From: Marchantia polymorpha subsp. ruderalis
Lineage: Eukaryota > Streptophyta > Marchantiopsida > Marchantiales > Marchantiaceae
NCBI GenBank assembly: GCA_037833965.1
Contig: AP031351.1
Coordinates: 13,466,501-13,530,500 of the forward strand
Direction: 5' to 3'
DNA length: 64,000 nt
Shown here: one piece after another, positions 12,961 to 43,936 of the stretch
How positions within the stretch are numbered: the stretch's first letter is position 1
Layout of the letters: every line of letters begins with the position of its first letter
Made by a program: the position numbers and the translations under genes
The notes under the pieces: model-generated
Database searches by the model: none
Seen by the model: the letters and a program-made list of their open reading frames with translations, nothing else
Told to the model about the DNA's origin: nothing

Positions 12961-15900
12961 CAATTCACCTGCTCATATATCCAAGCCATTTTCTATACTT
13001 CTCGGTTTTGCCAAAACTCATGCAATGGATACAAACCTTACTATGCAGTTTTGCACTGAAACCGAGTTTATGGGATTTTCAACATAATGCTCAAATGACG
13101 AGTTCTATTCTAGTAACTTGAAAGTCAGTTTCTGAATTGTGATGGATAGTAGATTTTTGCGAAAGTATTGAATTGTGAATCTCAAAATGGACGTGTTTTG
13201 ACACTGATCTATTTCATATATCATGTTTACCAAGATTGTGTACTTGTAATCGTATTTAAAATCAGACAGAAGTTTTGTAAAATTTCAAATTGAAATAATT
13301 TTTATAAGATTTATGAGTTCTTTTAATTTTTATTGATGTTGCAGATAATTCTTATTGATAACATTTTCAATGATTCTTAAGATAGATTCTGCAGGATATT
13401 TATTAGTTAAAAGGGAAATAATTTCCTAATTCAAATTCAAATTTCAAAACAGGAATGTTCAACTCTTTGCTTGCAAATTTTTTTTAAATAAGTAATATTT
13501 TTTATTTTAAGTTTGAGTAAAAGATTTGCATATGATTGGTACGATAAAATTGAAGTTTCAAATCATATTGCATCTTGATATCTCTTTTCAATCATATCTC
13601 TATTCAAAATCAAATATTGTTTCATCCACCAAAGATTATATTTGGTGAGTGATTTCAATTATCATTAAATTTGATAAAAATAAATAAAAATCGCATTCAA
13701 CTATAATATTTTTGAAAACTATGATGAAGATAAATATCAACGTGTTTGAAAAAAAAATGCATCATAATAATTGACGTTATTCTTGTAAACAAAAAGCAAA
13801 TATAGTAATAAGAATTTAAAAAAATTACTCAATTTCTTCATGTCAATAAAATATTTGAAACTTGTACTTAGTTTTATATTACTATCAATGTTCGTCCTTA
13901 ATAAATGAAAACAACCAATGTTTTAAATTCTCAAAAGCACATATTACTCACATAAAATGAAAAAAAATTATAAATAAGGCTACTTTGTTTAAAAAAATTG
14001 CACAAAATCAAAATTGTAATATAACAAATTTACAAATGCAATGATTTATAGTTATGGTAAATTATGAAAATAATGTAAATAAATAATTTACAAGCAATTT
14101 TTCATTGATATAAAAAAACGCTGTTAGATTTTACAAAAATGTGTTGTCAAGCATAGTTTTTAAATTAAGATTCAATTTTTTCACACAAAATATTTATGCA
14201 TATATAAAAATATATAAATTATCAATACATGTATATAAATTCGATATTTTAAAACAAAATTGATACAAATAATAATATGCATAAGATGAAGAGTGCAATT
14301 ATCATTGAATTAAATTATATTTTCATATGTCATATGATATATATATTTATATAAAAGTCAATTTATTTTGCAGTAATTGTAAGAAGAAAAATTTATCTAT
14401 TGCTTTGATTGAAAATTCAATAAGGATTAAATAATAATATATATTCTCATTTTATATCATATTTTAAATTTCAATTAAAATAAATTGATTATATAGTATA
14501 AAATTCAATGATAAAACTACTCGCTTCAAACGTTTTTATGAAATCTTGTATCCACGTAATAATTTGAAATTTGAAATTATTGTTTTATGATACTGCTGTT
14601 TTCTATTTTTTATTAACTCTATAAAAGAAAATAATTTAATTTAATTTAAATTAAAATTTTTATATATCTGGATATCAATAATATGTATGTTCAATATAAA
14701 ATAATTTCAATAATTTACCATTTATTTTTTATTGTGAAATATTTTTTAGGTCTATACCAATTTTAAAATTATACTTATCTAACTTTTTGTATTGGCAATA
14801 TTTTATTATTACTAATGAAAATGCGCTATATGAGATAGTTATAAGTATATTTATAAATGAAAATATTCAAGAAAAGTATTATGCATATGCTCATTGCACT
14901 TGATTTTTTTTCCATAAATATATATTTCGTTTAAAATTTTTAAATATTAAAAAATAGTTGTAAAAAATATTTATAATAAATTAATTTTGAGACTGAAAAT
15001 GATGTTATCTGATAATTAAAAAAAATATCATAAAAAATTATGCAGATTATGGAAAACATGTACCAAGTTTACATCAAGATTTTTCAGATGATACCATGTT
15101 GGATATATAGTATGCCTTATTGTGAAATTAAATATTTTTAGAATCATTGTGCAAATTATATGGAAGTCAACTACATCAAAGTCATGATCAATTAAAAATC
15201 TGTTATGATTGAAAAAGACAGTTTCAACTTTGCTTGATAATTATAGCAATTTGCGTATTATTTCACAGTAAATATGTTTTTATATAATGTATATATATAT
15301 ATTGTTTATTATTAGGGTATATTAATCTATCATTGGATTATTTATCTAGCTATGATAATATCGATATTGATGCATAATTCTATTTAATTTTCTTCTCAAG
15401 AGATTATCGTCATTACAAGAAATATAATTGTTTCTTATTAATTCAATATTACATTGCGTTTACATTTTTTATAATTCTGAACATCTTATCATCATGATCT
15501 GTTGATTGCATAATGTAAATGTTTTGTTTATCAGATTCAATGTACAAAAAAATATAAGTGCTCATGATAGACATATTTTTCGAATGCATTGAGTTGATAA
15601 TCCTATTAAGATGAACAAATAAAATATTGATGATTTTTAGCTTTGCTTCACTAATAGAGTTGTTTACTTACTAGTTTATTATATATTTTTGAAATATTAA
15701 AGTCTTCAGAGATAACATGTGATCATTTTATCATCTCAAGAAAGCATATTTGAAAAGAAACAGAACTGATTTATACATGCTACAGAATTATGACTTCGAT
15801 AAATATTTGTTCGATGGATCAGAATTGATCACAAGTTATATCTCCAGCGTAATGTTCAAATTCGATTCTCTTATTTGACAAAGATTAACAACGAGATACT

Positions 15901-17820
15901 AATATCGGTAAAAAATAAACCTGAGGTTTAACCTCTAATAATTGGATTATAATGTGTTCTACAAGATCTTATAGTTATGTCAATGGCATTTGATAGACTA
16001 GAGATTGCTAAACGTCAAATACTTTGATTTTCATCGAAGGGTATGGATATGTAACTTGAGTTTGTAGAGTTCTAGTGGATGGTTAGGTTTTGCTTCCACA
16101 AAGTAAAATATCAGCCTCTTGTAACTGCAGCAGTAGCATTTATTTTTTTGAGAAGTTAGTACAAGATACTCGCTGACGAGCCAACCTTATATTATATTGC
16201 TGGTTTTAGTTTATCACGTTTGTCTTCCAAGTCTGCCCGAGACGTTTTCTCTAAAGGACACGAAATGAATGATATATGGCTCAATGACTGCTGCACAATG
16301 TGACTTCGAATCTCGCATGTACACCACTTATCTCCAACAATGCGGTACTGTCATATACCAGAAATATGTTAATGTGGTTAGCTTCATGTGGAAAGCTAGT
16401 GTTTCATGAGGTTTTTTCTTACTTTCTGCTATACTACTTCGAAAGCTTCATAGCTGCACATCATATCTAGGAAGATTTAATTGATAGACACATATAATTA
16501 ATCATGTCAATTTAACCGTCATACGTGAATCCCAAACTTGGCCAGATTCTAGACACGAGTAAGCGAATACTTCGTTAGACTCAAGGACTACAGTACGAAT
16601 GAGGTAGGATTTGAACCGTACCGGCAGGATTTTGTTTTCCCCAATGAGCGGAAGAACACGTTCAGCGGAGAAGGTTATTCTGATACGCTTTATGTACATG
16701 TTTTCGTACTTTTAAGGTTGCTCATAGTTCATAGGACGATGCAGCGGGGAAGTTACTCCTAACATTACATGTACTTAGATATTAGAGAATGTGTAAACAG
16801 TTCTGGAGGAATGCAGCCAAAAACCACTGAAAGTAAATCCCACAAGATAGTAGACGGAAGTGTGGAATTTTTAACCAAGTATAATTGAATAGAACCAATT
16901 AACATTCAGCAACGACACATATTGAAGCAATGTTGTTTCATTCTGCATATAATGAAACAAAATCATGAACCTGAGAATTTAAAACTATCTTCTCATAGTC
17001 AAAGCCTGTGTGATCCAAGGGAAGTGGATACAGCAAGATAATTCTGAAATTTTTCTAACCATTTGTATCGACATTTATCAATAAATATAATTAATTGAAA
17101 ACTAATACTGCGTTTACATGACATGACTTTGTATATTCAATACAGTTTCTTATTAGCTTTTGAATGTAATGTAGACATGTTGAAAAAGATTGTGGAGTTA
17201 CATTAGAATTTAGTCAATATTTGTCTCAATTAAAAGACATCTGTAAAACTATTAAAGACTTCTTTTTCAAAAAGTCCAAATTATTGTTCAAAGTTTTAGT
17301 TCATTGATTTCCTAAATTTTTTTTTATTAAATAATCTGAAAAGTGTGATCAGTACTATGAGGTAAAAAAAGTATGTGCAAATTGTATTGATACAAGTAGA
17401 CAAATATTTTTGAGCAAACTAAATTATTTTGCATCTGGTTTAGATTTTTATAATACATCGTAAGTGTATATTTTCATTCACAATTGATATGACGAATGGA
17501 AATAATGAAAAAATTCTTGTGGGTTAATATCAATCAATAATGAAATTTTAGTAAAGCTAACTTTAATTTATAAAGAATATCAAAAAAACGTTAACATAGC
17601 CAGATACAGTTCAGTTGTGAGTATTGTTCTAAACTCTAAATTAATGTTAGTAATTTTTTAAGCATGCACGCATGTTTTATTTGATTAAATTGTGGATGCG
17701 GAAACACAAATTTCACGTAAAGGTACCACAATACCATAAGTCTTTAAGCTCATTTTTTCATAACAATATTTATATATCTGATGTAGATGGCAGCAAAGAC
17801 ATAAGAATCAATGGATTAAT
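12961..17820. other. AT-rich intergenic block
   Basis: Nearly 5 kb of very AT-rich sequence with frequent A and T runs, especially from 13.2 to 16.0 kb and again from 16.9 to 17.8 kb. There is no open frame beyond about 65 codons and no terminal repeats that I can pair. A slightly less AT-rich stretch sits at about 16.0-16.8 kb. It is probably old, decayed transposon DNA, but nothing identifies the family. Confidence 0.5.
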
Positions 17821-18879
17821 GAATGTAAATGGTAAATAGATCAAGCCTGTGTGACTCAAAGTGTCAAAAGGCTGAAAAACACAATACTAACAAACCAACT
17901 CCAACCTAGGAGAGAACCAAAAGAACCCCCTAACTAGTGCCCAAAGCACTAGAACGCTAACTAATAACATACATAATGTAACAACCTAAATCATAAGGCT
18001 CAAGTTGAAGCAAAGAATAGAAATTCTCAACATCAACTTTATGAGCCACTATAATCTCTATATATCTAGTACAAGTAAGAAACACATGCTATTCATACTC
18101 AACATTTTGCCCATCACATAGCCTTTCACTCCTATCAATATTCAACCAACGTAATTACTCAATTCCAAGCATATGAGATCCTGTTCTATGACTGGCAATA
18201 ATATGACGTAAAGATGTAGAGATTTATGCAACAAGGTACCCTTGCTCACAGTAAATAAGCATAGGATTCACGTGAAGTTGATAAAACTGCATTTTAGTGC
18301 ATACTCTCCTCCAAATGATGTTGAGAAACTCTTCCTTAATACGCTCGCGAAGGGCCATAGGTTGCAGATCCCAATCCAATTCCTTCACATTCCACCTCAA
18401 ATATCAAGTCATCACATCTGCAAACCATCCCTTGGAACGTGTGGCACGCAAAGCGTGAAGAGTAAGTCGAGAAGCATCAAGAGATCTAACCCTTTTAATA
18501 TAAGTAATGGTCAAGTAGAGAGCTTCAACCTCAAGAGGTAAACGACCAATTTTTGCAAGAAGAATAACATAAGGAGTTTGGTTCCTTACACCTAATTATT
18601 CTTGTAGGAAGATCTTTTGCAACCTCTCCACACGATCCAAACTTGTCTTCTTACTGCCAGGACCCCACACTTATGTCCCATATAGAACCAACTGCAATAC
18701 TAAGCTCCTAAATAAAAATTTCCTAAGACTTCAAGACACTAGATGAGCTCTTGTACATCGATTTAAAAACGAATATAGAGCTTTCTAACCAGCTTCTACT
18801 CTCTTTTGCACAAAAAGTGCCCAACTATAATTCTAAAAAAATCAATGCCTAAATATTTGTAACTCTTCACTTGTTCCAA

Positions 18880-20564: not shown

Positions 20565-21345
20565 CAGAGAGAGATAGAGTAAGAGCGACAGAGAGAGGAG
20601 TGGTGGGGGGGACAGATAGAGAATAGAGAGAGAGAAGATAAAGTGAGAACGATAGAGAGGCGAGGGGTGGGGGGTATAGATAGAGAATAGAGAGAGAGAA
20701 GATAAAGTGAGAGCGACAGAGAGGCGAGGGGTGGGGGGGATAGATAGAGAATAGAGAGAGAGAAGATAGAGTGAGAGCGACAGAGAGGCGAGGGGTGGGG
20801 GTATAGATAGAAAATAGAGAGAGAGGAGATAGAGTGAGAGCGATAGAGAGATTGGGGAGGGACAGATAGAGAATAGAGAGAGAGGAGATAGAGTGAGAGC
20901 GACAGAGAGATTGGGGAGGGACAGATAGAGAATAGAGAGAGAGTAGATAGAGTGAGAGCGATAGAGAGAGAAGGGGTGGGGGACAGATAGAGAATAGAGA
21001 GAGAGTAGATAGAGTGAGAGCGATAGAGAGAGGAGGGGTGGGGGGAACAGATAGAGAATAGAGAGAGAGAGAGGAGATAGAGTGAGAGCGATAGAGAAAG
21101 TAGGGGTGGGGGGGACATATAAAGAATAGAGAGAGAGTAGATAGAGTGAGAGCGACAGAGAGATGGGGGGGACTGATAGAGAATAGAGAGAGAGTAGATA
21201 GAGTGAGAGCGACAGAGAGATGGGGGGGACTGATAGAGAATAGAGAGAGAGGAGATAGAGTGAGAGCGATAGAGAGAGATAAGGGGGGGACAGATAGAGA
21301 GAGAAGAGATAGAGTGAGAGCGACAGAGAGAGATAGGGGGGAAAA
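20565..21345. repeat. Purine-rich minisatellite, about 60-bp unit
   Basis: About a dozen copies of a roughly 55-65 bp unit made of GATAGAGAATAGAGAGAGAG, then TAGATAGAGTGAGAGCGA, then CAGAGAGA and a run of G. The units differ mainly in the length of the G run and the number of GA pairs. The opposite strand gives long Ser/Leu/Tyr-rich frames in two phases (20525-21446), which are artefacts of the repeat. Confidence 0.93.
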
Positions 21346-21689: not shown

Positions 21690-22000
21690 GCGAGCTGTTG
21701 CAAGAAAGGGTGAGATCAGTGACAGAGAGCGAGACAGAGAGAACACTTTGTACTGGAGTGAAAAGCCTTGACATCATGGGCAGTGAAGCCCCAAGCTGAG
21801 TCCGGGCTGCTGCAAGAAAGTGCGAGATCAGAGACAGATAGCGAGACAGAGAGAACACTTTGTAGCGGAGTGGAAAGCCTTGACATCATGGGCAGTGAAG
21901 CCCCAAGCAGAGTCCGGCTGCTGCAAGAAAGGACGAGATCAGAGACAGACAGCGAGATAGAGAGAACACTTTGTAGTGGAGTGGAAAGCCTTGACATTAT
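21690..22000. repeat. Tandem repeat, about 111-bp unit, nearly three copies
   Basis: The landmark GAGAACACTTTGTA recurs at about 21739, 21851 and 21961, giving periods of about 110-112 bases. Each unit contains TGCAAGAAAG, GAGATCAG, a short GACAGAGAGCGAGACAG stretch, AAGCCTTGACAT and GGGCAGTGAAGCCCCAAGC. The third copy is cut short after TTGACATTATGGGCA. Confidence 0.9.
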
Positions 22001-22655
22001 GGGCAAGTCCATCACCACCAGAGGAATCCTTGACATCTGGTAAAGAGATATTGACGACCATAGCTTCTGAAGTACTTCCTCCCGTCATCAATCTTCCCAT
22101 CATCTGCTTTCTTCCCTTCGCCCTTACTGCCTGATAAGGGGCTACATATCCCAAGCAGAATACGTCGGTATGTGTGTGGCGGAGTAACCCAAGGATCTCT
22201 CTGGGCGAAAGCTTTGACTGATGTTGTTAGCGGTCAGGGCTGTCAGACAGTCACAAGTAATTCCAACATAGGAACTGAGTTGAGCAATCAAGGAAGTGCG
22301 CAAGGACCTTACACCACTAAGTGCTGGCCAACATTGGGTTTCTCAGCGCCTTGTATCATTAATCTAGTCCCTAGGAAAGCCCGGCGCTACGCGAACAAAA
22401 AAAAACCTCGCCCATGAAGTAAATCATCGCACCTACAATTTTAATAAAAAAAATCTATAAATTCTTTTTTTTTAGGAACGATTCATCCTTCCCGAACGCA
22501 GCATACAACTTTTCGTTGTAATGCGCTCTCCAAGTGTATTTATTTTCTTGCCATTAACAAGTTTTTGGAAGAAAACCTACTTGTGTCGGTTTCGGGAACA
22601 GGTACGCACTTGTTTAAGGTCGTTCGAGCTTTTCTTGGGAGTGTGGCATTAATTA

Positions 22656-26475: not shown

Positions 26476-29400
26476 TTAGAGTTCATCATTGATTGGTACA
26501 TGAACTTCCACGGGAGTCGTTTCGTATATGGGTACATGAGTTGAGTAGATAGGAGGAGACGTAGTTCGTAGCGCTTTCCAGATCCCCAACCGTTTGAGAA
26601 AGATGTAGTTGCAGACGAGTAGAAAAACAACAATGCCCACCACCAGTATGGCCCTACAAGCATGAATAGCACAATTTAGGACAGAAATTACGCCTAGCTG
26701 GATAAGCCATGACTACGAGTTATTTAACCCAAGGAGTAACTGGAGTTGGTAAACTTAAGCACTTCAAAATTTGAGACTTCATTCAACGTATCAAACATGA
26801 ACGAGATACGCTATTTGAAGCAAACAACTAGGTCTAGATCGCCTTAATTATGGGTGTAGTTGGACCTTTTAGCTCATCGAATGCCTGAATCACAACTCGA
26901 GATCCCCAACATAAAACATTTCATTTGGACAACAAAAACGTGGGAATGCCTAAGGCCGGTGACGGCTAATCTACTTAGGGGGTGACACCTATCTTTTTGG
27001 GGCGATGGGGACAATGAAACTAGCCGCAAGCTCAGGCACAAGCGTAAGAAGATCAAGACGCCTATCAGTTGAAGGTTCAATGTCCATTTTTCCATCTATT
27101 AAGACCATCTTTGGAACTAGCTTTCATAAATAGTTCATACCTATCAATAAGATCTGATCTGCTCATTGTAGAAAGCAGGCGTCTGGTACTGTTCAGTATT
27201 GAGCGAGCTCCAAAATATTCTTCCTTGGCATCACGCAAAGTGATATTGGATTGATCTACAAGTCAAACAAATTACAATATCAGCCGAACGCTGAAACAGC
27301 TATGTGATGATGACGTCCGGCTACAGGAGTTTCAGTCTCCATACCACAAACACGTTCAAAACGTCGGCTTTAACTTAACTTCAAAGCTTGTATTTCGGAC
27401 TACTTCTATCGCAGACAATGGAGGTCAAACAGAAGAAACGCTTGGACCATATACGTGAACCATGAAAGTGGCAGAGAGGTCAATGCTCTTCCTTGCCATG
27501 TAATATGTCAATGTGTAGAAAGCAATTAGAATTGCTTGAATCAAAATCTTCATGTGAATCAAAACAACAAATTCTAGACGTAATCCTTATTGACTTTCAA
27601 GTCATTCTAAGTTATGAAACGACAGATCAACGTTTGCCGTGCATAACATTTAAGAATCTAGATACACATATATGTACATACCTAGAGTCTGTATGGTGTT
27701 CACACTCCTCTCTACTTCCTGCGCTTCAACAGAAAAATGTTCAATAATTCGTACAACCAGCACTAATTCAACAGCTCGTGTTGCTCAAAGGCAAAGCTTC
27801 GCGTGAGTAAAATTATTTGCACGTGTGCCTGACGACATTCCTTCTCTATCAAAAGCTCGATATGTCTTCTGACTGAAAGAGAAATAGAATCTATATCTCC
27901 TCAAGATCACTTTTACCAGAGTGAATCAAGTCCTTAAAAGAGTCGGGTATTCGTGCTACACAGTTTACAACTGTGCGCTTAACACTATAAAGGACTTGCA
28001 TCTTCAAAAATTTAGCAAACTTTGAATGGATTGAAGGAGCAGATTGCAAACTGTAAGCAAGAGACAACCTGAACCATCATCTGACGAGTTCGACGCAGTC
28101 CATCTGTAATGCTCTCTGCTCCGGCGACCATCCCCGCTTGAGTTCTCCAATAAACAATTGGAAAGTATCCAGTCAGCATCTGAGAATAGCCTAGCCAAAA
28201 GAATTATCTCGTACTTTGGATAAATTCTTCATGAGAATAAGAAAAAAACTTGGCGAAAGTCAAACGGGTGAGAACCAAATAATGTTCGTAGCAGGCACTA
28301 TACTGAGGCATTTTTTAACAAGAAGTTTTACAAAAATGAATTACTGGAGAATACGCCGCCGAGTGGTCGCTTCTTCCCCTCCTGACAATAAAAGCTCCCT
28401 CTGCGTACGCGACAATCAAGCAAAGCTCAACTGTCGGCAAAGAGTATCAACGGGAAAAAAGGAATCCCCTTCTTGTCTTGCAATCTGGCACAACTTTTCC
28501 CACTCTGTCCTCGTGAACACACTAGCAAGAGCTATATCACATACTGAAAAGGTATATCTCAAAGAGCTACTTAGGATACGACTTTTGAGCATGTCACAGA
28601 ATTCTAGGATGTACAGGTACCCATTTATTGAAATTTCTCTAGCGGTAACCAGGCATGCAAGGATGATGCATGCAGAATAGAATAGAGAAACGAGAATCTA
28701 CCTTGAACCAGCCGTATGCAATTTCAAAATGCAAATGTCTCATGTAACTCCACTTGTCACAGGTAACCACTTACTTCTCGTTTGGCAGCTCTTTCGATAT
28801 TCAACTTTGCATTCCTGTTCGCATTTCTGAGACTCAACCGGAGTCTGCATAAGAAGCATGTTTCCTTAGAAGATAGCCATATATGACCTGACATTCATGA
28901 CTCCATTTTACACCATTCCGCAAGTAGGAAACTAAAATCGCTCATGCAAAATGGAGACATTAAAGATTCACGGAGTAAATATCACTCTGCAAGTCCCTCC
29001 TCATACTGCAGCTGTGTTCGATGACTCAGGAAATGACGCCATACTCATTCAGTTGTTTCTTCCATTCATCGAGCTTTTGGACGCAAGCTTCGCCCATATC
29101 TTCGCTGCGCACCAAGCATGAGCCGAAGTTTGAACAATTAGACGAAGTCTGTACGGTGTTTATCAGAAAGCGAACATGTTGATAATAGTAAGTCAAAACT
29201 CATCCCTATAGAATAAGCCCCAGTCAGCTCCAAATCAAGCAACTGTTTCTGAAAACCGACTAGAAAGGACTTCACTCTGACCACTCGTTGAATTATTAAG
29301 GGCGAAACTACTTTATCTTTCAAAGTCTTCATTGTGAGACAACCACAAATATCAGGCAAGAGTATTTGCAGATCACAAGCTTCTTTCGACCACAATCTTT

Positions 29401-29947
29401 TTAATTTGCTGGAAGGAGACTTCTCCTGGCTACAACCCCGGCTTGATAAGTCGTGTTTAACATTCCTTTGTCCAGTTCAATCAATTTAAGTCGTCGACTC
29501 CATTGGCGTATCTGTGAGAATACAATTCATTGATTTCAAGGGGAGTTTCGTGGACACTCTTTTCCATAGATGGAAGTCCGACATCATGTATATCATGGTC
29601 AACCAGATCCTTGATCTCCTCAGTAGTTTTCTACGTTTCCAGCTTGATATCTCTTCTATTGTTCTCACTTACCATCAGGTTCAGAGCAGACGATTGCTAT
29701 AATGGCGGCTGGATGAAATTTACCTCGGATGCTGTTGGGATATCAGGTCCATGCGCAAAAGAAGGGACTGCAACGTGGTGAAACGATCTTGAACGGCAGC
29801 ATTTAGCTGGGGCAAAGCGCCTTTGGCCGAAAGGCCCCCAACAGATCCACATGTTTCCACCGCTTGGATCTTCTCTATCAGATCGGAGGAAGTCTTTTCC
29901 CACTGGTTTCGAACAAGCTCAGCCGCTTCTTCTACATCTTGATCCAT
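26476..29947 (-). CDS. SEC20: Sec20-type Qb-SNARE (BNIP1/Sec20 family)
   Basis: A tail-anchored SNARE that acts in retrograde Golgi-to-ER vesicle fusion with the Ufe1/Use1/Dsl1 machinery (family knowledge). Eight exons (minus): 29947-29724, 29104-29045, 28844-28775, 28400-28345, 28144-28069, 27718-27682, 27255-27141, 26653-26476; total 816 nt, 271 aa. All junctions are GT-AG and keep the frame. Diagnostic blocks: LRLSLRNANRNAKLNIERAA (exon 3), RELLLSGGEEATTRRR (exon 4), QAGMVAGAESITDGLRRTRQ (exon 5), EVERSVNTIQTLD and STRRLLSTMSRSDLIDR. A single membrane segment spans about 214-231 (AILVVGIVVFLLVCNYIFL). The roughly 40-residue lumenal tail ends in INDEL, resembling an HDEL-type retrieval signal. 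Intron 1 (29105-29723) holds an unexplained 48-codon frame. The 5' flank contains the ARPC2-derived duplication. Confidence 0.93.
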
Positions 29948-30072
29948 ATTTCAAATCCAAGCTTGAATATCAATCAATCTGCAAGAAACCCAGCCCATTA
30001 TTGCTGAGCTAGTCGATCTTTTAAAAATGAAATCGAAAATGAAAATGAAACCTTTGGCATCGACAACCTACT

Positions 30073-30903
30073 ATAAGAGAAAGCATAAGGAGAAACACGG
30101 CTTGATAAACTGCGTTAAGTTGTGGGCAGACCAAAGAATTAAAATTTTGTCTTTGGTTCCAGCAGCGAGCAGAGGCTGCACAACAGACAGTCTACCGTTT
30201 TTTATGGAAGTTTTGCTCTCCAATTTTAGGAAGCATGCTAGGAAATTAGCTCGAGTGCCCGATCGTTCTAGGGATTGCAATCTAAAGAGGCGATGTACTT
30301 GAAGGAACAGATAATCCACTGCCAGTCGCTGATGTATTCAAGAAGGCAAAAGGCATTCGGATGACTCGAACAATATGGGCGTAACTTCAAAAACCATGCT
30401 ACAGGCAAATTCGACAACCGGTCTTTCCTTGATATGGAGATCAGGCTAAATTGCTACCACCCATGGTCTGATTTTCTAGCGTCTCAAGCCGCAAGAATGT
30501 GAACTCATTCGACAGCGCACGTGGTCAAGCTTTCAGCTGTCCATGCTTCAATCACAGAATGCAGGAACTAGACCTATCAAGAGACCGCAAAAGGCTGCAA
30601 GGCTGTGTATTTGCTTCAATACTTGGACTACCCGTTCACTAATCAGAAGTCAAAAGTAGGGACAATAAAGTGAGAGGAACATTAAATTGTAGAATGAAGG
30701 CACAGAGGAAGACAGGAAGAACTCAGTCCCGACACGAGATAGCTTGAATAGCATCGAATTGACAAACAAGAATGAAATACGTAACAAAGTGAATTTAGAG
30801 AGGGATAAAGACAGATCACATTCGATGGGAGGCGAGAGAGAAGAACCTGTTGCAACACCCTCGAGGCTTCCGAAAGGAGAATCATTGCGCTCTCGAACTT
30901 GAC
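30073..30903 (-). pseudogene. Inverted partial duplicate of ARPC2 (start, exon 1, part of intron 1)
   Basis: The minus strand here matches 36126 to about 36966 on the plus strand. It keeps the ATG (30885) and reads MILLSEASRVLQQVLLSRLP against MILLPGASRVLQQVLLSRLR in the real gene. Homology starts about 18 bases before the ATG and ends inside intron 1, so neither promoter nor later exons were copied. The exon 1 donor TC|GTATGT has become TC|GAATGT, so the normal splice is lost. Intron-derived sequence is also conserved (for example GAACGGGTAGTCCAAG in both). The copy sits on the same strand as Sec20 and about 130 bases upstream of its start codon. Confidence 0.9.
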
Positions 30904-31784
30904 TTTCTTCTAGTGACAGCTCTACTTGTCAAATTTGAAAGGTCCTATATATGATGCAAGGTGTACACCTTATCCTAGCTGACATTATCTCGCTTGTAAC
31001 GAAATTCCTGCAGGAACTAAATTCGGACTAAACTGACAGGACAATCTGCTTAGAGACAGTAGAGCCCTGAAGGATTTCAAAAAACTCTACCAGAGGCCGA
31101 GGCATAACTCATACCGGTCTGCTATGTAGAATACTAGTCCGACAAAAACCGTGACTTGAACTTAAATCTATCACTACCAAGATGTGCATGCTATTACTCG
31201 GTCGGCTGTTTTGAATTGCATTTTATCACTTTTAACACTAGAAGTTAAGAGATAGGCTCATTCAAAGGATTAAACACTATCTTTAAAGTGAGAAATATCT
31301 AGATTGGTTATCGTCTCCATAAATATATTTTATTAAAAAGTACAAAAATATAAGTGTTCAACTTCCATCATTCATTATATTTCAAGAGTGTACATGTGAC
31401 AATTCTAAGTAACACACAAATTGTTGATGTATTGTTGATAATTAATACATTTATTTACCAAGCACACTGCAGCTAACTGCCGATTATAGATTATTCACAA
31501 TAATGTAATTATATTTCCATCTTGATTAGACTATTCACTTAGATTTTTGATTTATCAATGGTATATTAGTTAAATTTATAGTTTTTTTTCATGTTGATTC
31601 ATATGATGTATATATTTTCTATTAAATCAAATATAATATTTTGAAATATGTATGACATGAAATCCATTTCTTGAGTAATTTGTTTAGCTCAATTTTTTCA
31701 TGATCAATTTTTAAGATTGAGAATAAAGTTGCTATTGGTTAGTTGGTAAATTAACCAACATCATCTTTTGATCACTTTATATGT

Positions 31785-32270
31785 TATTGGATCGTGATAC
31801 ATGAAATACATTATGTATTTTCATATGGCAAGGTGAGAGAAGTGTAGCATGTGGTGGATGTCTATTTTGGCTCGTATGGAATACTACATACGTGATGAAA
31901 GCTCTCTTGATATTTGATTTGCGAGAGTAAAAGTGGAAGGCCCGTTTAGAGAAAGTTGAGAAGTGCAAGCGAGAGATTGAGATTGAGAAAAATGGTTGCT
32001 ACTGGTAAGTTAAACAACATCATCTTTTGATTGCTATACATGTTTTTTGATCGTGATACAATGTTTGTCAAGAATCTAGTGCAATCTGCAGTAAGTGAGT
32101 CTTGTGACATTTACTGGACCCCATGAGCAGCTCCATCACTACGAATAGAAAGGAGTCAGTGTTGTGTCACCTCGTGAGTAACAGATACGGCCTCCACTTT
32201 TCCTACATCTCTCATCATGGACATGTTTTTTGATCGTGATACATGAAATACATTATGTATTTTTATATGT
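31785..32270. repeat. Direct repeat pair, about 43 bp, spaced about 440 bp
   Basis: The motif GATCGTGATACATGAAATAC followed by ATTATGTATTTTCATATG occurs at about 31790-31828 and, with a single change, at 32232-32270; a partial third copy (TTTTTTGATCGTGATACAATG) is at about 32045-32065. The upstream words AACATCATCTTTTGAT are also repeated. They are probably remnants of a duplicated or terminally repeated element. No coding remnant is visible between them. Confidence 0.75.
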
Positions 32271-34132
32271 GACGTAAGTTTCAACTTGCATAACATTTAA
32301 TTAAAACGTTTTAATATCACAAAATTATTATGAATTTAGGATTAAACTTTGATGTTTCTACAAGAGATAAATTTTTCTAGATAATCAAATATGATTCACT
32401 ACTTGAAAAATCAACTTTCTACAATGAGCATTTACATGTTACATTTATACCCAAAACTAATGACACACCTAGCTATAAATAGCTATAACCTGAGGTTACT
32501 CCTTAACCGAAATTAAATTCAACAATTGTTATTCAAAGGTGAATGTTCTTAACACATTCTCTACAGTTTTTTCTAACTAACCATTAGTTTGAACATGATA
32601 AGCACTTGATATAGCTTAATTTTTTTGGAAAAAGTAAACCATTTTCTTTCAAAATAAACAAGTGAACAATCTTATTCATTACATTAATTATTAAGATTTT
32701 GCTTAATACATGATTTATTAACTTTGCATCTAGATACAATTAAGCAAGTTGTGAAGCTTTCACTGTTATATGGTTGCTCTTATGTTAATCATCTTGCTAA
32801 AATTACCCACAAAAACCTCTATTCAATCATTTTCTAATGAAGTATTCTTATAGATCATAGCTGAGATCATATTAAGATGTTCACACCGTTATTATGGAAT
32901 GGGAAGAGATTGTAATAAACAAATTTGTTGACAAACTACACATCTTTAATCACAAAGATTCACATACTTTCATATATTAGACCAATTATACCCATGTTGT
33001 ATGCTCTCCAAGTTATTATTACTTCCACATGAACTACAATGATTGTATCACGACTTTCTAATAAATTCATTATGTGTAACTCTTGATCTTGAAAAATCTA
33101 TATGAATTGTTTATGAAACTTCTAACATAAAGCTTTATATGCATTTACAACTTATAGTGTTCTCATGAATTTTTCATCTTTCTTTGTGAAATATGTCATT
33201 TTGTTCCAACGATTAGTTTGAATCTTCACTTTTGCAAAATGATTGAGACATGACTTGTGTGTGAAAACATCAACAACTTGTTCTTTTGCTCTCCACATAC
33301 ACAATTTTTATGTCAAAACGTTGATATTAGTTAGTATTATAATTGTATAGAGTTTAGAATTTGAGTCATAGGGTTAGAGTTTTCAACTTATGAGATTAGA
33401 AGTACAATCGATGAAACTAGTTAGACTATTTAACATGACAAGGAGACTTGTCATTTGAAAATATTATGCTACTAGGCAGGTTTTGCATGAGGAACATAAA
33501 TAGAATTGACTTGCAAGATTTTGTTTATTTGCCTGTTTTCATTTTATCATGTTTTGGCTATGATTTGATTATAGTTAATTCTAATTTAAAAAGTTAGCTA
33601 TGTTAGATTTCTCTCTAAAATTTTGTGGAGATTATTACTAATTACATTATTATTCACTTTTTTCATGTTTATATATAGCTCATAGATATTTTATATAATC
33701 TTTATGCTTTTATGAATTCATCAAACCTTGCATTTCACCACATAGCACAGTAGCTTGTTTAAATCTATACAATGATTTAAATAATTTACATATCAACTTT
33801 TCTTAAACTTTATTATTTATGTTATTGTTTCCACAATATGAATTAAAGGGAAAATTGTTAGTGATAATTTAAGTCAAAGGTTAACTCTAGCTAGTTTAAT
33901 CTTGATTTATGGTTTATTCTAAGTCTAGTAATTTCTGTTACAAACTATATAGGAGGCCAAGAGGTAACTTGACTCAAATAATACTTTAAATGTTTCAATA
34001 AAACCTCATATTTCAAGGTAGATCTAAAAAGGTGAACCACATATATTCTCGACAGTGCATAATTTTTTGTGTTTTTTGTTAGACCCATTATACATTAAAA
34101 AAATACACAAACGTTCTTCATGTGAAAAATAT

Positions 34133-34206
34133 ATTAATGTGGATCCACAAATACGAAAGTGAGGATGTACCTCACTTTCGCCAAGTATTTGTGGATCCAC
34201 ATTAAT
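34133..34206. repeat. Long hairpin, about 32-bp arms
   Basis: The left arm ATTAATGTGGATCCACAAAT continues with AC GAAAGTGAGG, and the right arm is CCTCACTTTCG, then CCAAGTATTTGTGGATCCAC ATTAAT. The arms pair around ATGTA with one small asymmetric bulge. The size and bulge are compatible with a small-RNA precursor or a miniature inverted-repeat element; nothing decides between these. Confidence 0.88.
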
Positions 34207-34957
34207 GCACAAAGAGGAGAGAAAGATTACCGTTTACAAACACTTTTGTAAGCCTTTCCTTTGAACTTTCTTCATTCGTCAATATGTTAAAGTCAACATG
34301 TACTCACTATACTATCATAAATCCTCAAACCTGAAATTGACAACGAATGGATATAGAATCACTTTGTGAGCTTTAAAGATCAAAGTGTACATGTTGCACA
34401 TGACATTATGTGTTTTGAAGTAACATTTGTTGAGGGTAGATGACATAAGTCGGAATAAGGAAAGATTGTGGTCCTGACCCGCCTTTCCTTGGGTTTGATA
34501 TGGACCCTTTTCTACTGAGATCATACTATGTTTATCATGGGTATAGATGACTTTGGTATTCGAACATAAGCATTTCATATTTGAACATCAATTTTTAACC
34601 GAGATGCAATTGGATATAATCAACACAATTTTCAGTTATGAGTTTGAACTCTTCTCTTTAGTAGGCCTAGATAGATGCCACAATGAACGAAAGTAAATGG
34701 GTACAAATTTGTTACTGAAGAAGTGCAGTGATTGGTAAGATCGATGTGTTCTTAGAGAAAGTTTTCAAGTTCTTTACAAAAGCAAGTTATTTAAGTTCTT
34801 GGAGAAAGAAAGTTCTTTAAGTTCTTTTAATTTTTCTAAGTGCATTTACACATCCACGCTTATTTCTGGCTTATAAAGCGCTGTTCAAAGAAGAGTAACG
34901 CATCGTATTGACAGTGTGGTGAATAACAGAACTTACTGCTCGAAGTGGTTTGGACTA

Positions 34958-35252
34958 AATGGCCCTTAAAAAGATTGTCCACTCGCCATCCGGTTCAAAA
35001 CTTTCGTGCTATCTTTAATTATTTGTTACAGAAGAGCTTATATCATATCACGGGGGTTTATGGAAGAAAGATTGCTATTACAAGTGGGAAGAACTCCAGC
35101 GTCGTGGTTCAGGTAAGTGAAATTTGCTTAAATTTTCTCTGCTTGCTCTGAATTTGTTTCACCTTTGAGATCTTGCTTTTGGTTCAACATCTATCTACAA
35201 TGACAATTTTGATCAAGGAGATGGTGTGGAAGAAATCCTTAGAGAGTCAAAT
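34958..35252 (+). pseudogene. Possible two-exon gene fragment, unidentified
   Basis: A coding-looking stretch from an ATG at 34958 (MALKKIVHSPSGSKLSCYL), then a stop, then in the same frame LFVTEELISYHGGLWKKDC and YYKWEELQRRGS. It ends in a consensus donor (CAG|GTAAGTG at about 35112). After a short intron-like gap, an acceptor-like GAG at about 35170 leads to LAFGSTSIYNDNFDQGDGVE, EILRESNL and a stop at about 35252. Residue composition and splice-like borders look protein-coding, but I recognise no family. The internal stop suggests a dead fragment. Confidence is low. Confidence 0.35.
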
Positions 35253-36143
35253 CTATAGAACTCGAAGTGAGATGGACACCGGGTTATCTCATGATACATC
35301 AGAAGACCGTGGATTATCGTGCCTTCGCAAGTACGCTAGTGTGCATGCGCATGCATTCTAAAGAACGCATGTATGCAACATGTTGCAGGAACAAGAACCA
35401 AATGTTCCGACCGTCGACGATGGAAAGCGGAGAAAGCACAGGGAGACTTGAAGCCGAAGAGAAGTGGAAGACGAGGACATAAAGGAAGACGTTCACAAAA
35501 AGCGGGGGCATAATTACATTACCGTACGCAGTCTGGGAGTATTATTAGCAAATGTCGAGCACAGTAGATGGAGGGAAGCGGACTGTGTCCAAACTGGGCG
35601 GCCCGCTTCACGCAAGACGATCATGCGGTGGATGGGCTAGAACGAGGAGAGGCGCGGCGGCAGGAGAGAGAGGCGAGATACAGACGGAGATGTGAGAATG
35701 AGTTAAACCAAAGATCGAACCAACCAAACCTTGAACTTGAACCATCGATCTGATCGGGGTCCGTGGGTTGGGACCGAGGGGGAGGTGTGGAGGACGAAAC
35801 AACCGCACATGGATGGCAGAAACATGGCAGAAAATTGTTTCAACAGTGGAGGAGGAGATGCGAAAGTGAGAGAAAGTATTTAATGGTAGGGGCATTTTCT
35901 CTAATTGGTGAGGAGGAGGGGTCTCCAAGAAGGAGGGGACGAGAAGCGTAGTCAGAGAGTCGAGAGTGCCTCTCCATTGGAATGAGGGCACTTTGGCACG
36001 CATGCACCAAAGGAGGAGGAAAAGGTGCTTTGCCTGAGGAGAAAAACAAGCTTCTCCCGCTGCAACAACCACAGCTCCAGCACCAGCTGTCGCAGCAGCA
36101 GCTCCTGGTTGCTCCCACTTCTCTGGTCAAGGTCGAGAGCGCA

Positions 36144-39100
36144 ATGATTCTACTTCCGGGAGCCTCGAGGGTGTTGCAACAGGTTCTTCTCTCTCGCCTC
36201 CGATCGTATGTGATCTGTCCTTTTCCCTCCCTAATTTCACTTTGTTACGTTTTTCATTCTTGTTTGTCAATTCGATGCTAATCAAGCTATCTCGTGTTGG
36301 GACTGAGTTCTTCCTGTCTTCCTCTGTGCCTTTAATCCACACTTAAATGTTCCTCTCACTTTATTGTGACTAATTTTGACTTCTGATTAGTGAACGGGTA
36401 GTCCAAGGATTGAAGCAATGACACAGCCTTGCAAAATTTTGTGGTCTCTTGAGAGGCTTGGTTCCTGCATTCTGTGATTGAAGCATGGACAGTTGCAAGC
36501 TTGACCACGTGCGCTATCGAACGAGTCCACATCCTTGCGGCTTGAGACGCTAGAAGAGCAGGCCATGGGTGGTAGCAATTTAGCCTGATCTTTATGCGGC
36601 ATGTTCAAGGAATGACCGGTTCTCGAATGTCCCTGTAGCATGGTTCCTGAAGCTACGCCCAACTTGTTCGAGTCATCCGAATGCCTTTTGCCTTCTTGAA
36701 TACATCAGTGATTGTCAGTGAATTATCTGTTCCTTCAAGTACATCCCCTCTTTAGATTGCAATCCCTAGAACTATCGGGCACTCGAGCTAATATCCTAGC
36801 AAGCTTTCTAAATTTGGAGAGGAAAACTTCCAGAAAAAACGATAGATTGTCTGTTGTGCAGTCTCTGTTTGCTCCTGGATCCAAAGACAAAATTTTAATT
36901 CTTTGGTCTCCCCACAACTTTACGCCGTTTATGAAGCCATGTTTCTCTTTATGGCCTCTCTCATAGTCATATATTCTCTTAGGAAAGAATGGGTACTCAA
37001 TTCTGGACCAGTGGGTAGAGTGAGCGAGTGTGAATTAATTTTTTGTCATGGATGCCAATATGGAAAACTTAAGGTTGTACTGTGCTTCAGATCCTGGAGA
37101 CGGTTAGATTCATATCAATCTTAAAACATATTCTTCCTGGTTAGTGTAAATGTTCTTTTCTTGGCGTCAAGGCCTACGATGTGCATCCCATAAAAATCTA
37201 CTCGAACTGTGTCAATGTACAAGTTTTAATTATCATTGTGTCTGTCTTCGTCTTATTGCCGCAGTTGTATTTTGGTATGATGGATAGATGTGCCAACTTG
37301 TTTTTTTGTCTCTGTGTAGTACAGAGAAGCCCTTGGAGGTGGACTTCCATTTGACGGAGTTTGATGATGTTCGCTACCATATTAAGGTCCGATATCTCAA
37401 CCCTGTTTTTTCCGCATTTGTTCATGTGCCCTTAATGAGGTCCTTCATTTATCTGCCTTAAGTTTCAGGGTCCGTTAAGAGGTAAAATTTGACATACATA
37501 TTTTTATTTATTCTGCCCGTTGCATTGGAAATTTCTACTCGATATTGCTCTATCAATTTGTTAGAGTCAGTTTAGATTACGGATGCTTGTATGTAGAGAA
37601 TCAGCAAAATCTGTTCCGTAGGTTCAGATATTCAGCTGTTGATTCTAGAGACTGGTCTCTGATACTAAGAACCTGTAAAATCATTGTGCTTTCCTGACAA
37701 CCCACTCTATTCGAGTATTGTGAACTAAAGTGGCTGCCTGCAGGCATCAGCGAAGGAGCCGAAGCAAGTCCTTCTTTCGATCTCTCTTCCACAGTCACCT
37801 CCAGAGACTGTTCTGTCCGCGGGCCTACCTTTTGGCGCTATAGAAGCTGTCAAAGGAGCATTCGGGTCTGTGTCACAAGTGGTGGACCCACCTGAAAACG
37901 ATTATCATCTTACTTTGAACGTGGACGTGGGGAGCTTTCCTACTGATGAAGGTATGAGCCAATAAGAAGATATATTGTCCTGCTTGGAAGTAGTTGAGTA
38001 CAATTTTCTGCACCAGATCAAACCCAAACTTGGTTTTTCTCATTTCACATTGTCGTACAACATTAATACGCATTGGTCGTCATCGAGATGTAGGTGTTAC
38101 TCAAAATGTCTTGATAACAATCGCTTTCAGCTTGTTGAACCGTCTTTCGAAGCCCCCGGACAGGTCCATGGTGAATAGTGAATGAAGGAGATGCGCTATG
38201 TTTTCCCATCCTGCTGGACCTTATAATGTAGACCATGTGCTGACATTCTTCCGGTTTGTTATTCCTAGCGCATCAGAAAAGCTATTCGATGTCTCTGTCC
38301 TGTTCTTTATTGATTGACTGGTCCAATGCATGGGGTTACGCCTGTGGTAGACAATCCTTATGGTCGTACATTCCGTGTCTGAACTTCGGTCTCCTTGCAT
38401 GTTGAGGCCTTGCGGGTGATCATGTGTTACTTCAAACGTTCACGCAATGCACCCATTTGTGTAATCTAGTCTTTCTTTACAGTTAGTTTCTTTTGATTTA
38501 GGTTGTTATATTAGGGACATCATTAGTTACCGTTCTAGTGCTCTTGGCACTAGCTAGGGATTGATCTTTGGGGTCTTTTCCCTTGTTTGTGGTTTTTCGC
38601 TTGTATTGTGTTTTTCGGCCTTTTGACCCTTTGAGTCCCCCGGGCTTTATCTATTACCATTTACCATTTACTTTGCTTTGTTCACACACTTGATGCTAGA
38701 GTTTAGGGTCTCTCCGATTAGATATGTCATTCTCTTCGCTCAGTCCTTCCAACTCGGTTACTATTAAGACCTCTCAGCCAGGTCGTGGGATATATGCTCT
38801 TCTTGCTATGACCGGCAAATACGTTTGAGTACCCTTCGATATGTCATTTCAGGCTTTTTTCTTAACACAGCTCGATCATGTACTTATTTTGAGGCGTTAC
38901 GTTTGTAACGCCAAACGATTGATGCAGATTTCAAAATGTATGTCTTGGATCATGTCCATGAAGATCTGTATGCTGATGGTATTCAGCTCGTCCAAGTGTT
39001 GCCGTCTAGTCTATAGATAGATTCTAGTTTTGTTTATACCACGGTAATTATATGATTCCTCGTGTTAAGAACGCTCGTCGTCTGTTTCTTTACTGGACTT

Positions 39101-43772: not shown

Positions 43773-43936
43773 CTTGAACGAGAACTTAGAACAGATGAGC
43801 TCTTTGTAAATCTATGATGTGATAATCCTTCTAATTCGAGTTCCCGGTTGGTCCCTTGAACGAGAACTTAGAACAGATGAGCTCTTTGTAAATCTATGAT
43901 GTGATCTTCCTTCTAATTCGAGTTCCCGGTTGGTCC
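43773..43936. repeat. Tandem duplication, 82-bp unit, two copies
   Basis: Two consecutive copies of an 82-base unit beginning CTTGAACGAGAACTTAGAAC and ending GAGTTCCCGGTTGGTCC. They differ at about two positions (GTGATAATCC against GTGATCTTCC), which indicates a recent duplication downstream of ARPC2. Confidence 0.95.

Follow-up and report, generated by a model that had tools for sequence, protein, structure and literature searches.

The locus and its two genes

The window analysed here, the whole stretch of 64,000 nucleotides from contig AP031351.1 of Marchantia polymorpha subsp. ruderalis (assembly GCA_037833965.1), contains two divergent genes, ARPC2 on the plus strand and Sec20 on the minus strand, and in front of Sec20 lies an inverted partial copy of the 5′ end of ARPC2. 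An initial annotation, made from the letters of the sequence, had proposed this duplication. The features on which the argument depends are as follows:

29724..29947, minus strand: first coding exon of Sec20, assigned by frame and position, with an open frame up to a GT donor
30070..30903, minus strand: inverted partial copy of ARPC2, with 89.4% identity over 842 columns to 36126-36967
31541..33327, no strand assigned: decayed interspersed repeat in the 5.2-kb spacer between the arms, pieces of which recur in other parts of the assembly at 67-82% identity
36126..36967, plus strand: source arm, the 5′ end of ARPC2, which contains the ARPC2 start and whose gene matches ARPC2 chains when exons 1-3 are joined
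36144..36205, plus strand: coding part of ARPC2 exon 1, an open frame joined by GT-AG to 37320-37386 and 37744-37951

Is the ATG carried by the source arm a real start codon? When the three ARPC2 exons are joined at their GT-AG boundaries, they give one frame of 112 amino acids, for which eight sequences of solved structures are found at E <= 5. The best four are ARPC2 chains (E 4.1e-05 to 0.0019), three of them with matches beginning at residue 1 in solved Arp2/3 complexes, while the remaining four are weak matches to uracil-DNA glycosylase (E 0.13-0.15). Because of these chain matches, three of which start at residue 1, the ATG that was copied is very probably the genuine ARPC2 start. A later exon of the gene also exceeds the Pfam cut-off for P34-Arc (28.6 bits vs 27). 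It is to be noted, as points against the ARPC2 identity, that the 112 amino acids of exons 1-3 have no Pfam match and that exon 3 alone gives just a sub-threshold match to ArgoL1 (E 0.12).

For Sec20, the exon at 27077-27262 exceeds the cut-off of the Pfam family (31.1 bits vs 27), and the first exon alone, with its ATG at 29947, has no Pfam match. Since six-frame searches of the assembly at E <= 1 place all four P34-Arc rows and the single Sec20 row at the present locus, both genes look single-copy at the sensitivity of a family search. The splice sites of the two genes (12 donors, scoring 4.6-9.5, and 10 acceptors, scoring 8.7-17.0) served to train the small splice model from which the splice-site scores below are taken.

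Three further features were seen in or near ARPC2. A near-ideal donor, CAG/GTAAGT at 35113 on the plus strand (score 9.6), is placed about 1 kb upstream of the ATG and perhaps belongs to an upstream non-coding exon. A weaker inverted pair, 17825-17997 and 38490-38664 (177 columns, 80%), has one of its arms within the gene. An 82-bp tandem duplication (43773-43936), whose units are 97% alike, follows some 1 kb after the last of the ARPC2 exons that were read.

An inverted copy of the ARPC2 5′ end

Self-comparison of the window by BLAST returns one alignment, in which 36126-36967 on the plus strand is matched to 30903-30070 on the minus strand (E = 0), and a separate repeat finder recovers this pair in two blocks, free of gaps, of 91% and 90%. 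Similarity of the arms by chance is excluded. The initial annotation had named a self-alignment without homology between the arms as the observation that would count against it; the alignment was run and found homology over the full 842 columns, so that the inverted duplication itself is borne out, as is its separation of 5.2 kb, which is exactly 5,222 bases. In its boundaries the outer end was off by 1-3 bases (30073 for 30070, and 36966 for 36967). The copy takes in exon 1 together with 18 bases that precede the ARPC2 ATG and sequence corresponding to 762 bases of intron 1; position 36144, the ATG of the source, is equivalent to 30885 in the copy.

Beyond both edges the homology stops: locally aligned, the 1-kb flanks score no higher than shuffled sequences, 12/60 and 51/60 of which reach the observed value. 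In the whole 241-Mb assembly a DNA search finds the copied stretch at two places, the source and the one inverted copy, and at no other, and the upstream flank of the copy (30904-31345) has two other short matches of 48 and 55 bases at 85%. Because of these two results, the copied stretch is not a mobile family at the sensitivity of the search.

Origin and age

How can the start of one gene be placed in front of another? Among the possible ways, a retrocopy, made from a spliced message by reverse transcription, is ruled out because intron 1 sequence is retained. Capture of a gene fragment by a transposon would be suggested by the decayed interspersed repeat in the spacer (at least 104 rows of matches including itself, with 40 of 1519 candidates scored). 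This repeat, however, touches neither arm, its matched part ending about 640 bases short of the edge of the copy, and the copied stretch has only the one copy besides its source. By eye, the flanks of the copy show neither terminal repeats nor a target-site duplication; no formal search was made there. With these points we consider transposon capture highly improbable. An artefact of assembly is barely credible, for the arms are 10% diverged and their flanks are different.

The best reading is an ordinary partial inverted duplication, local and decaying. We put at roughly 70% the probability that a single event at the DNA level placed about 840 bases of ARPC2, inverted, 5.2 kb away and upstream of Sec20, and that the copy has since decayed and is now passive. 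The ARPC2 start codon, exon 1, and part of intron 1 would have been copied next to Sec20 in one event, presumably as a templated insertion during repair of a break rather than through a transposon or reverse transcription. Since then the copy would have decayed neutrally. It would now be DNA upstream of Sec20 that is mostly not part of the message, and the main Sec20 transcript may start near or downstream of the Sec20-proximal end of the copy or may otherwise escape the upstream ATGs described below.

The duplication can be compared with known systems. Duplicated, that is, non-processed, pseudogene fragments of plants are likewise intron-bearing partial copies near a working parent in which a splice site has been lost, and in rice one such copy lies 2,594 bp away from its parent (PMC2708354). 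Two of the traits by which such pseudogenes are recognised are found here, homology to a working gene extending into an intron and a disabled gene structure. Unlike those fragments, the present copy consists of the extreme 5′ end alone and is situated in the 5′ region of another gene. Templated or inverted insertions at DNA breaks are similar in that nearby DNA is copied in inverted orientation and no transposon marks are seen, whereas the insertions described in yeast are very short, mostly about 5-34 bp, compared with a tract of 842 columns at a distance of 5.2 kb (PMC11724301). Among the papers listed in literature searches, no title or abstract opening mentions the ARPC2/Sec20 duplication. 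If the copy is passive, it would be a further example of gene starts that are copied beside other genes.

The arms differ by 80 substitutions (36 transitions and 44 transversions) in 834 ungapped columns, which corresponds to a Kimura two-parameter (K2P) distance of 0.103. At an assumed plant substitution rate of 7e-9 per site per year, this distance would give an age of about 7 million years, which is a rough guess since it depends on the rate and the generation time and since one arm is partly constrained. The remaining 8 columns are gaps, in 3 clustered runs within one small patch, and BLAST counts 2 gap openings per 81 mismatches. So few gaps are odd at first glance, yet they are in line with repeat pairs in one 200-kb block of C1, a short contig of 5,591,195 bases, where 76 gap openings per 2126 mismatches were counted in 17 overlapping, non-independent pairs of at least 400 bases and 86-94% identity. 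After pairs with overlapping parts had been removed, 241 repeat pairs of at least 200 bases (E <= 1e-20) were counted in the same block, whereas the 64-kb window has 1. The block is repeat-rich and C1 is short, which makes it an unfair control for gene-rich DNA, and no genome-wide rate of duplication is derived from it.

Decay of the copy

Within the copy two features bear on what is left of the gene:

30822..30823, minus strand: copied splice donor, changed from GT to GA (score 1.7 vs 5.4 for the GT of the source at 36206-36207)
30682..30885, minus strand: open frame of 67 amino acids from the copied ATG, with its stop at 30682 and no Pfam family

The gene structure is disabled in the copy, because the donor is lost and because the homology ends within intron 1, so that exon 2 is missing. 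Both the mutated donor and the ARPC2-like open frame had been recognised in the initial annotation, which had also stated that the ATG and 20 codons survive. The frame is indeed open, but 4 of the 20 full codons are altered, 3 of them with a change of amino acid (L3L, P5S, G6E, R20P). A preserved ARPC2-like peptide is disfavoured, as the 67-amino-acid frame belongs to no Pfam family and three of the four differences in exon 1 alter a residue, and the reading frame probably has no product of consequence.

In exon 1 there are differences at 4 of 62 sites, and in the intron part at 75 of 754 aligned sites. With a source under constraint and a copy free to change, an exon rate about half that of the intron would be expected, and the counts are taken in favour of neutral decay. 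Judged from the arms as they stand, decay of the copy looks neutral, the exon being too short for proof. Changes from C/G to T/A and changes in the reverse direction are balanced (18:18), and the source has 28 CG dinucleotides, the copy 31. Thus, decay driven by methylation of the copy gives no signal in the C/T balance or in the CG counts, which are a weak test.

Could Sec20 use the copy as a leader?

The copy ends 122 bases before the Sec20 ATG at 29947, adjoining the gene on the same strand as had been noted at first, though with a distance of about 130 bases. One more feature becomes important here:

30946..30951, minus strand: TATATA, a candidate TATA box on the Sec20 strand, 48 bases upstream of the copy

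It can be postulated that the copy was inserted inside the Sec20 leader, just past this TATA box, and that the messages carry the ARPC2-derived leader or splice it out, with the upstream frame of 67 codons damping translation. A TATAWA motif stands 20-60 bases upstream at 2.4-2.6% of GC-matched positions and 4.2-4.6% of all positions, and the TATATA at 30951 was picked out post hoc, after looking. The frame, open though it is for all 67 codons, bears no sign of selection. A leader running from 30951 to 29947 would contain 13 upstream ATGs, of which the copy contributes 11 and the stretch from the copy to the Sec20 ATG the other 2, in front of a gene that is single-copy by family search, and these would burden any leader that runs through the copy. 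Because of them, and because no donor in 29960-31000 scores above 4.7, an intact translated leader through the copy is unlikely. A spliced leader is possible, since acceptor-like sites are present at 30176 (9.7), 30399 (9.0), and 29979 (7.2) and donors can be found upstream. Regulation of Sec20 by the ARPC2-like upstream frame is possible but disfavoured, and the whole postulate, that of an insertion into the leader, is in our judgement unlikely.

Several observations nevertheless weigh against a copy that is simply passive and neutral. Without the copy, the TATATA at 30951 would be 170 bases from the Sec20 ATG, a sensible distance for a promoter that fits an insertion into the Sec20 leader, and transcripts could still enter the copy. 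Even if transcription starts near the end of the copy, the upstream ATGs at 30060 and 29998 persist. The acceptor-like site at 30176 is in the top 0.3% of 8030 AGs, and nine donors scoring at least 6 are present upstream of the copy (30904-36200) in a score-based scan, which is preferred to a strict donor-motif search of the region upstream of the copy that found nothing. Finally, neutrality is judged on few exon sites, and a comparison of two arms without an outgroup does not tell which of them changed at each site.

Between the copy and the Sec20 ATG there is also a TGGGCT element, at 29997. Elements of the TGGGCT type mark plant housekeeping promoters.

Another way in which a copied gene start might act is intron-mediated enhancement. 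The copied stretch is start-proximal and of a type able to regulate from a transcribed region, as in plants, where promoter-proximal introns can enhance expression and are without effect upstream of the transcription start (PMC6760150, PMC11525189; the position dependence is taken from the former). The motif of PMC6760150, TTNGATYTG, is missing from both strands of the copy and from the plus strand of the source arm; its one match is at 29960, between the copy and the Sec20 ATG. GATC is not enriched either, with 4 occurrences in the source and 3 in the copy against shuffle means of 3.2 and 3.1, and in Marchantia the GATC effect is reported to be modest and weakly supported (PMC11525189). Unlike enhancing introns, the copy thus lacks the enriched motifs by which it could be counted among them. 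An effect of the copy on Sec20 or ARPC2 is unproven.

Antisense RNA, small RNAs and hairpins

The arms had also been suggested to form double-stranded RNA with ARPC2 pre-mRNA. In the direction implied, with a transcript of the copy from the Sec20 strand, this is contradicted by the strands: read on its minus strand, the copy is 90% identical to the plus strand of the source arm and has the same sense as ARPC2 pre-mRNA, and for this reason RNA from the Sec20 strand cannot pair with it. Pairing of a Sec20-strand transcript with ARPC2 RNA is rejected on this logic, and pairing is limited, as far as strand orientation tells, to plus-strand RNA of the copy, antisense to Sec20.

Such RNA might arise by divergent plus-strand transcription from the Sec20 promoter, and, with complementarity to both exon 1 and intron 1 of ARPC2, it might give rise to small RNAs acting in trans. 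The arms share 12 exact runs of at least 21 bases, the longest being 45 in the intron and 41 inside exon 1, and this complementarity would suffice for small RNAs, from plus-strand RNA of the copy only. A precedent comes from rice, where 145 pseudogenes were reported as candidates for producing antisense small RNAs, with support from the parental gene for 38 (PMC2708354). The balanced changes and the CG counts given above, weak as a test, leave no trace of long-standing methylation, and we regard an antisense source as very unlikely. A combination of both roles, in which the ARPC2 5′ end sits between the Sec20 TATA and the coding region, Sec20 expression depends on it, and a divergent plus-strand RNA is 90% complementary to ARPC2 exon 1, must be called far-fetched; if true, one insertion would couple a gene of vesicle fusion (Sec20) and a gene of actin nucleation (ARPC2). 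More generally, if the copy is transcribed, it would offer, in a plant with a small genome, a clean natural case in which the 5′ end of a gene is reused as the leader of another gene or as an antisense source.

An inverted copy beside a coding gene also has the layout expected under the inverted duplication model of Allen and colleagues for the origin of MIRNA genes, in which a segment of a protein-coding gene is inverted and which is described in PMC3237417. Could the locus be a nascent MIRNA, or hairpin, locus made by inverted duplication of its target gene? In that model the arms should be near enough for one short hairpin transcript (precursors in PMC3237417 average about 119-196 nt in length, and their loops about 5-6 nt), whereas the present arms are 5,222 bases apart, in two divergent genes and not in one hairpin transcript, with a decayed repeat in the spacer. 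For a hairpin, a single transcript of the plus strand would have to run from the Sec20 side over 6.9 kb into ARPC2, and such an origin is scarcely believable.

Other features of the window

Within the spacer, a perfect 22-base inverted repeat with a 30-base spacer of its own occupies 34133-34206. Further away, the interval 13001-16000 is strongly AT-rich (GC 17-25%). Two tandem arrays follow, a purine-rich one with 12.5 copies of 64 bp (20566-21330) and one with 2.8 copies of 112 bp (21694-22005), and the kilobases around them have a GC skew of +0.37 to +0.42. A match to an Rfam group II intron at 22414-22530 on the minus strand (41.4 bits vs a cut-off of 40) is possibly organelle-derived DNA.

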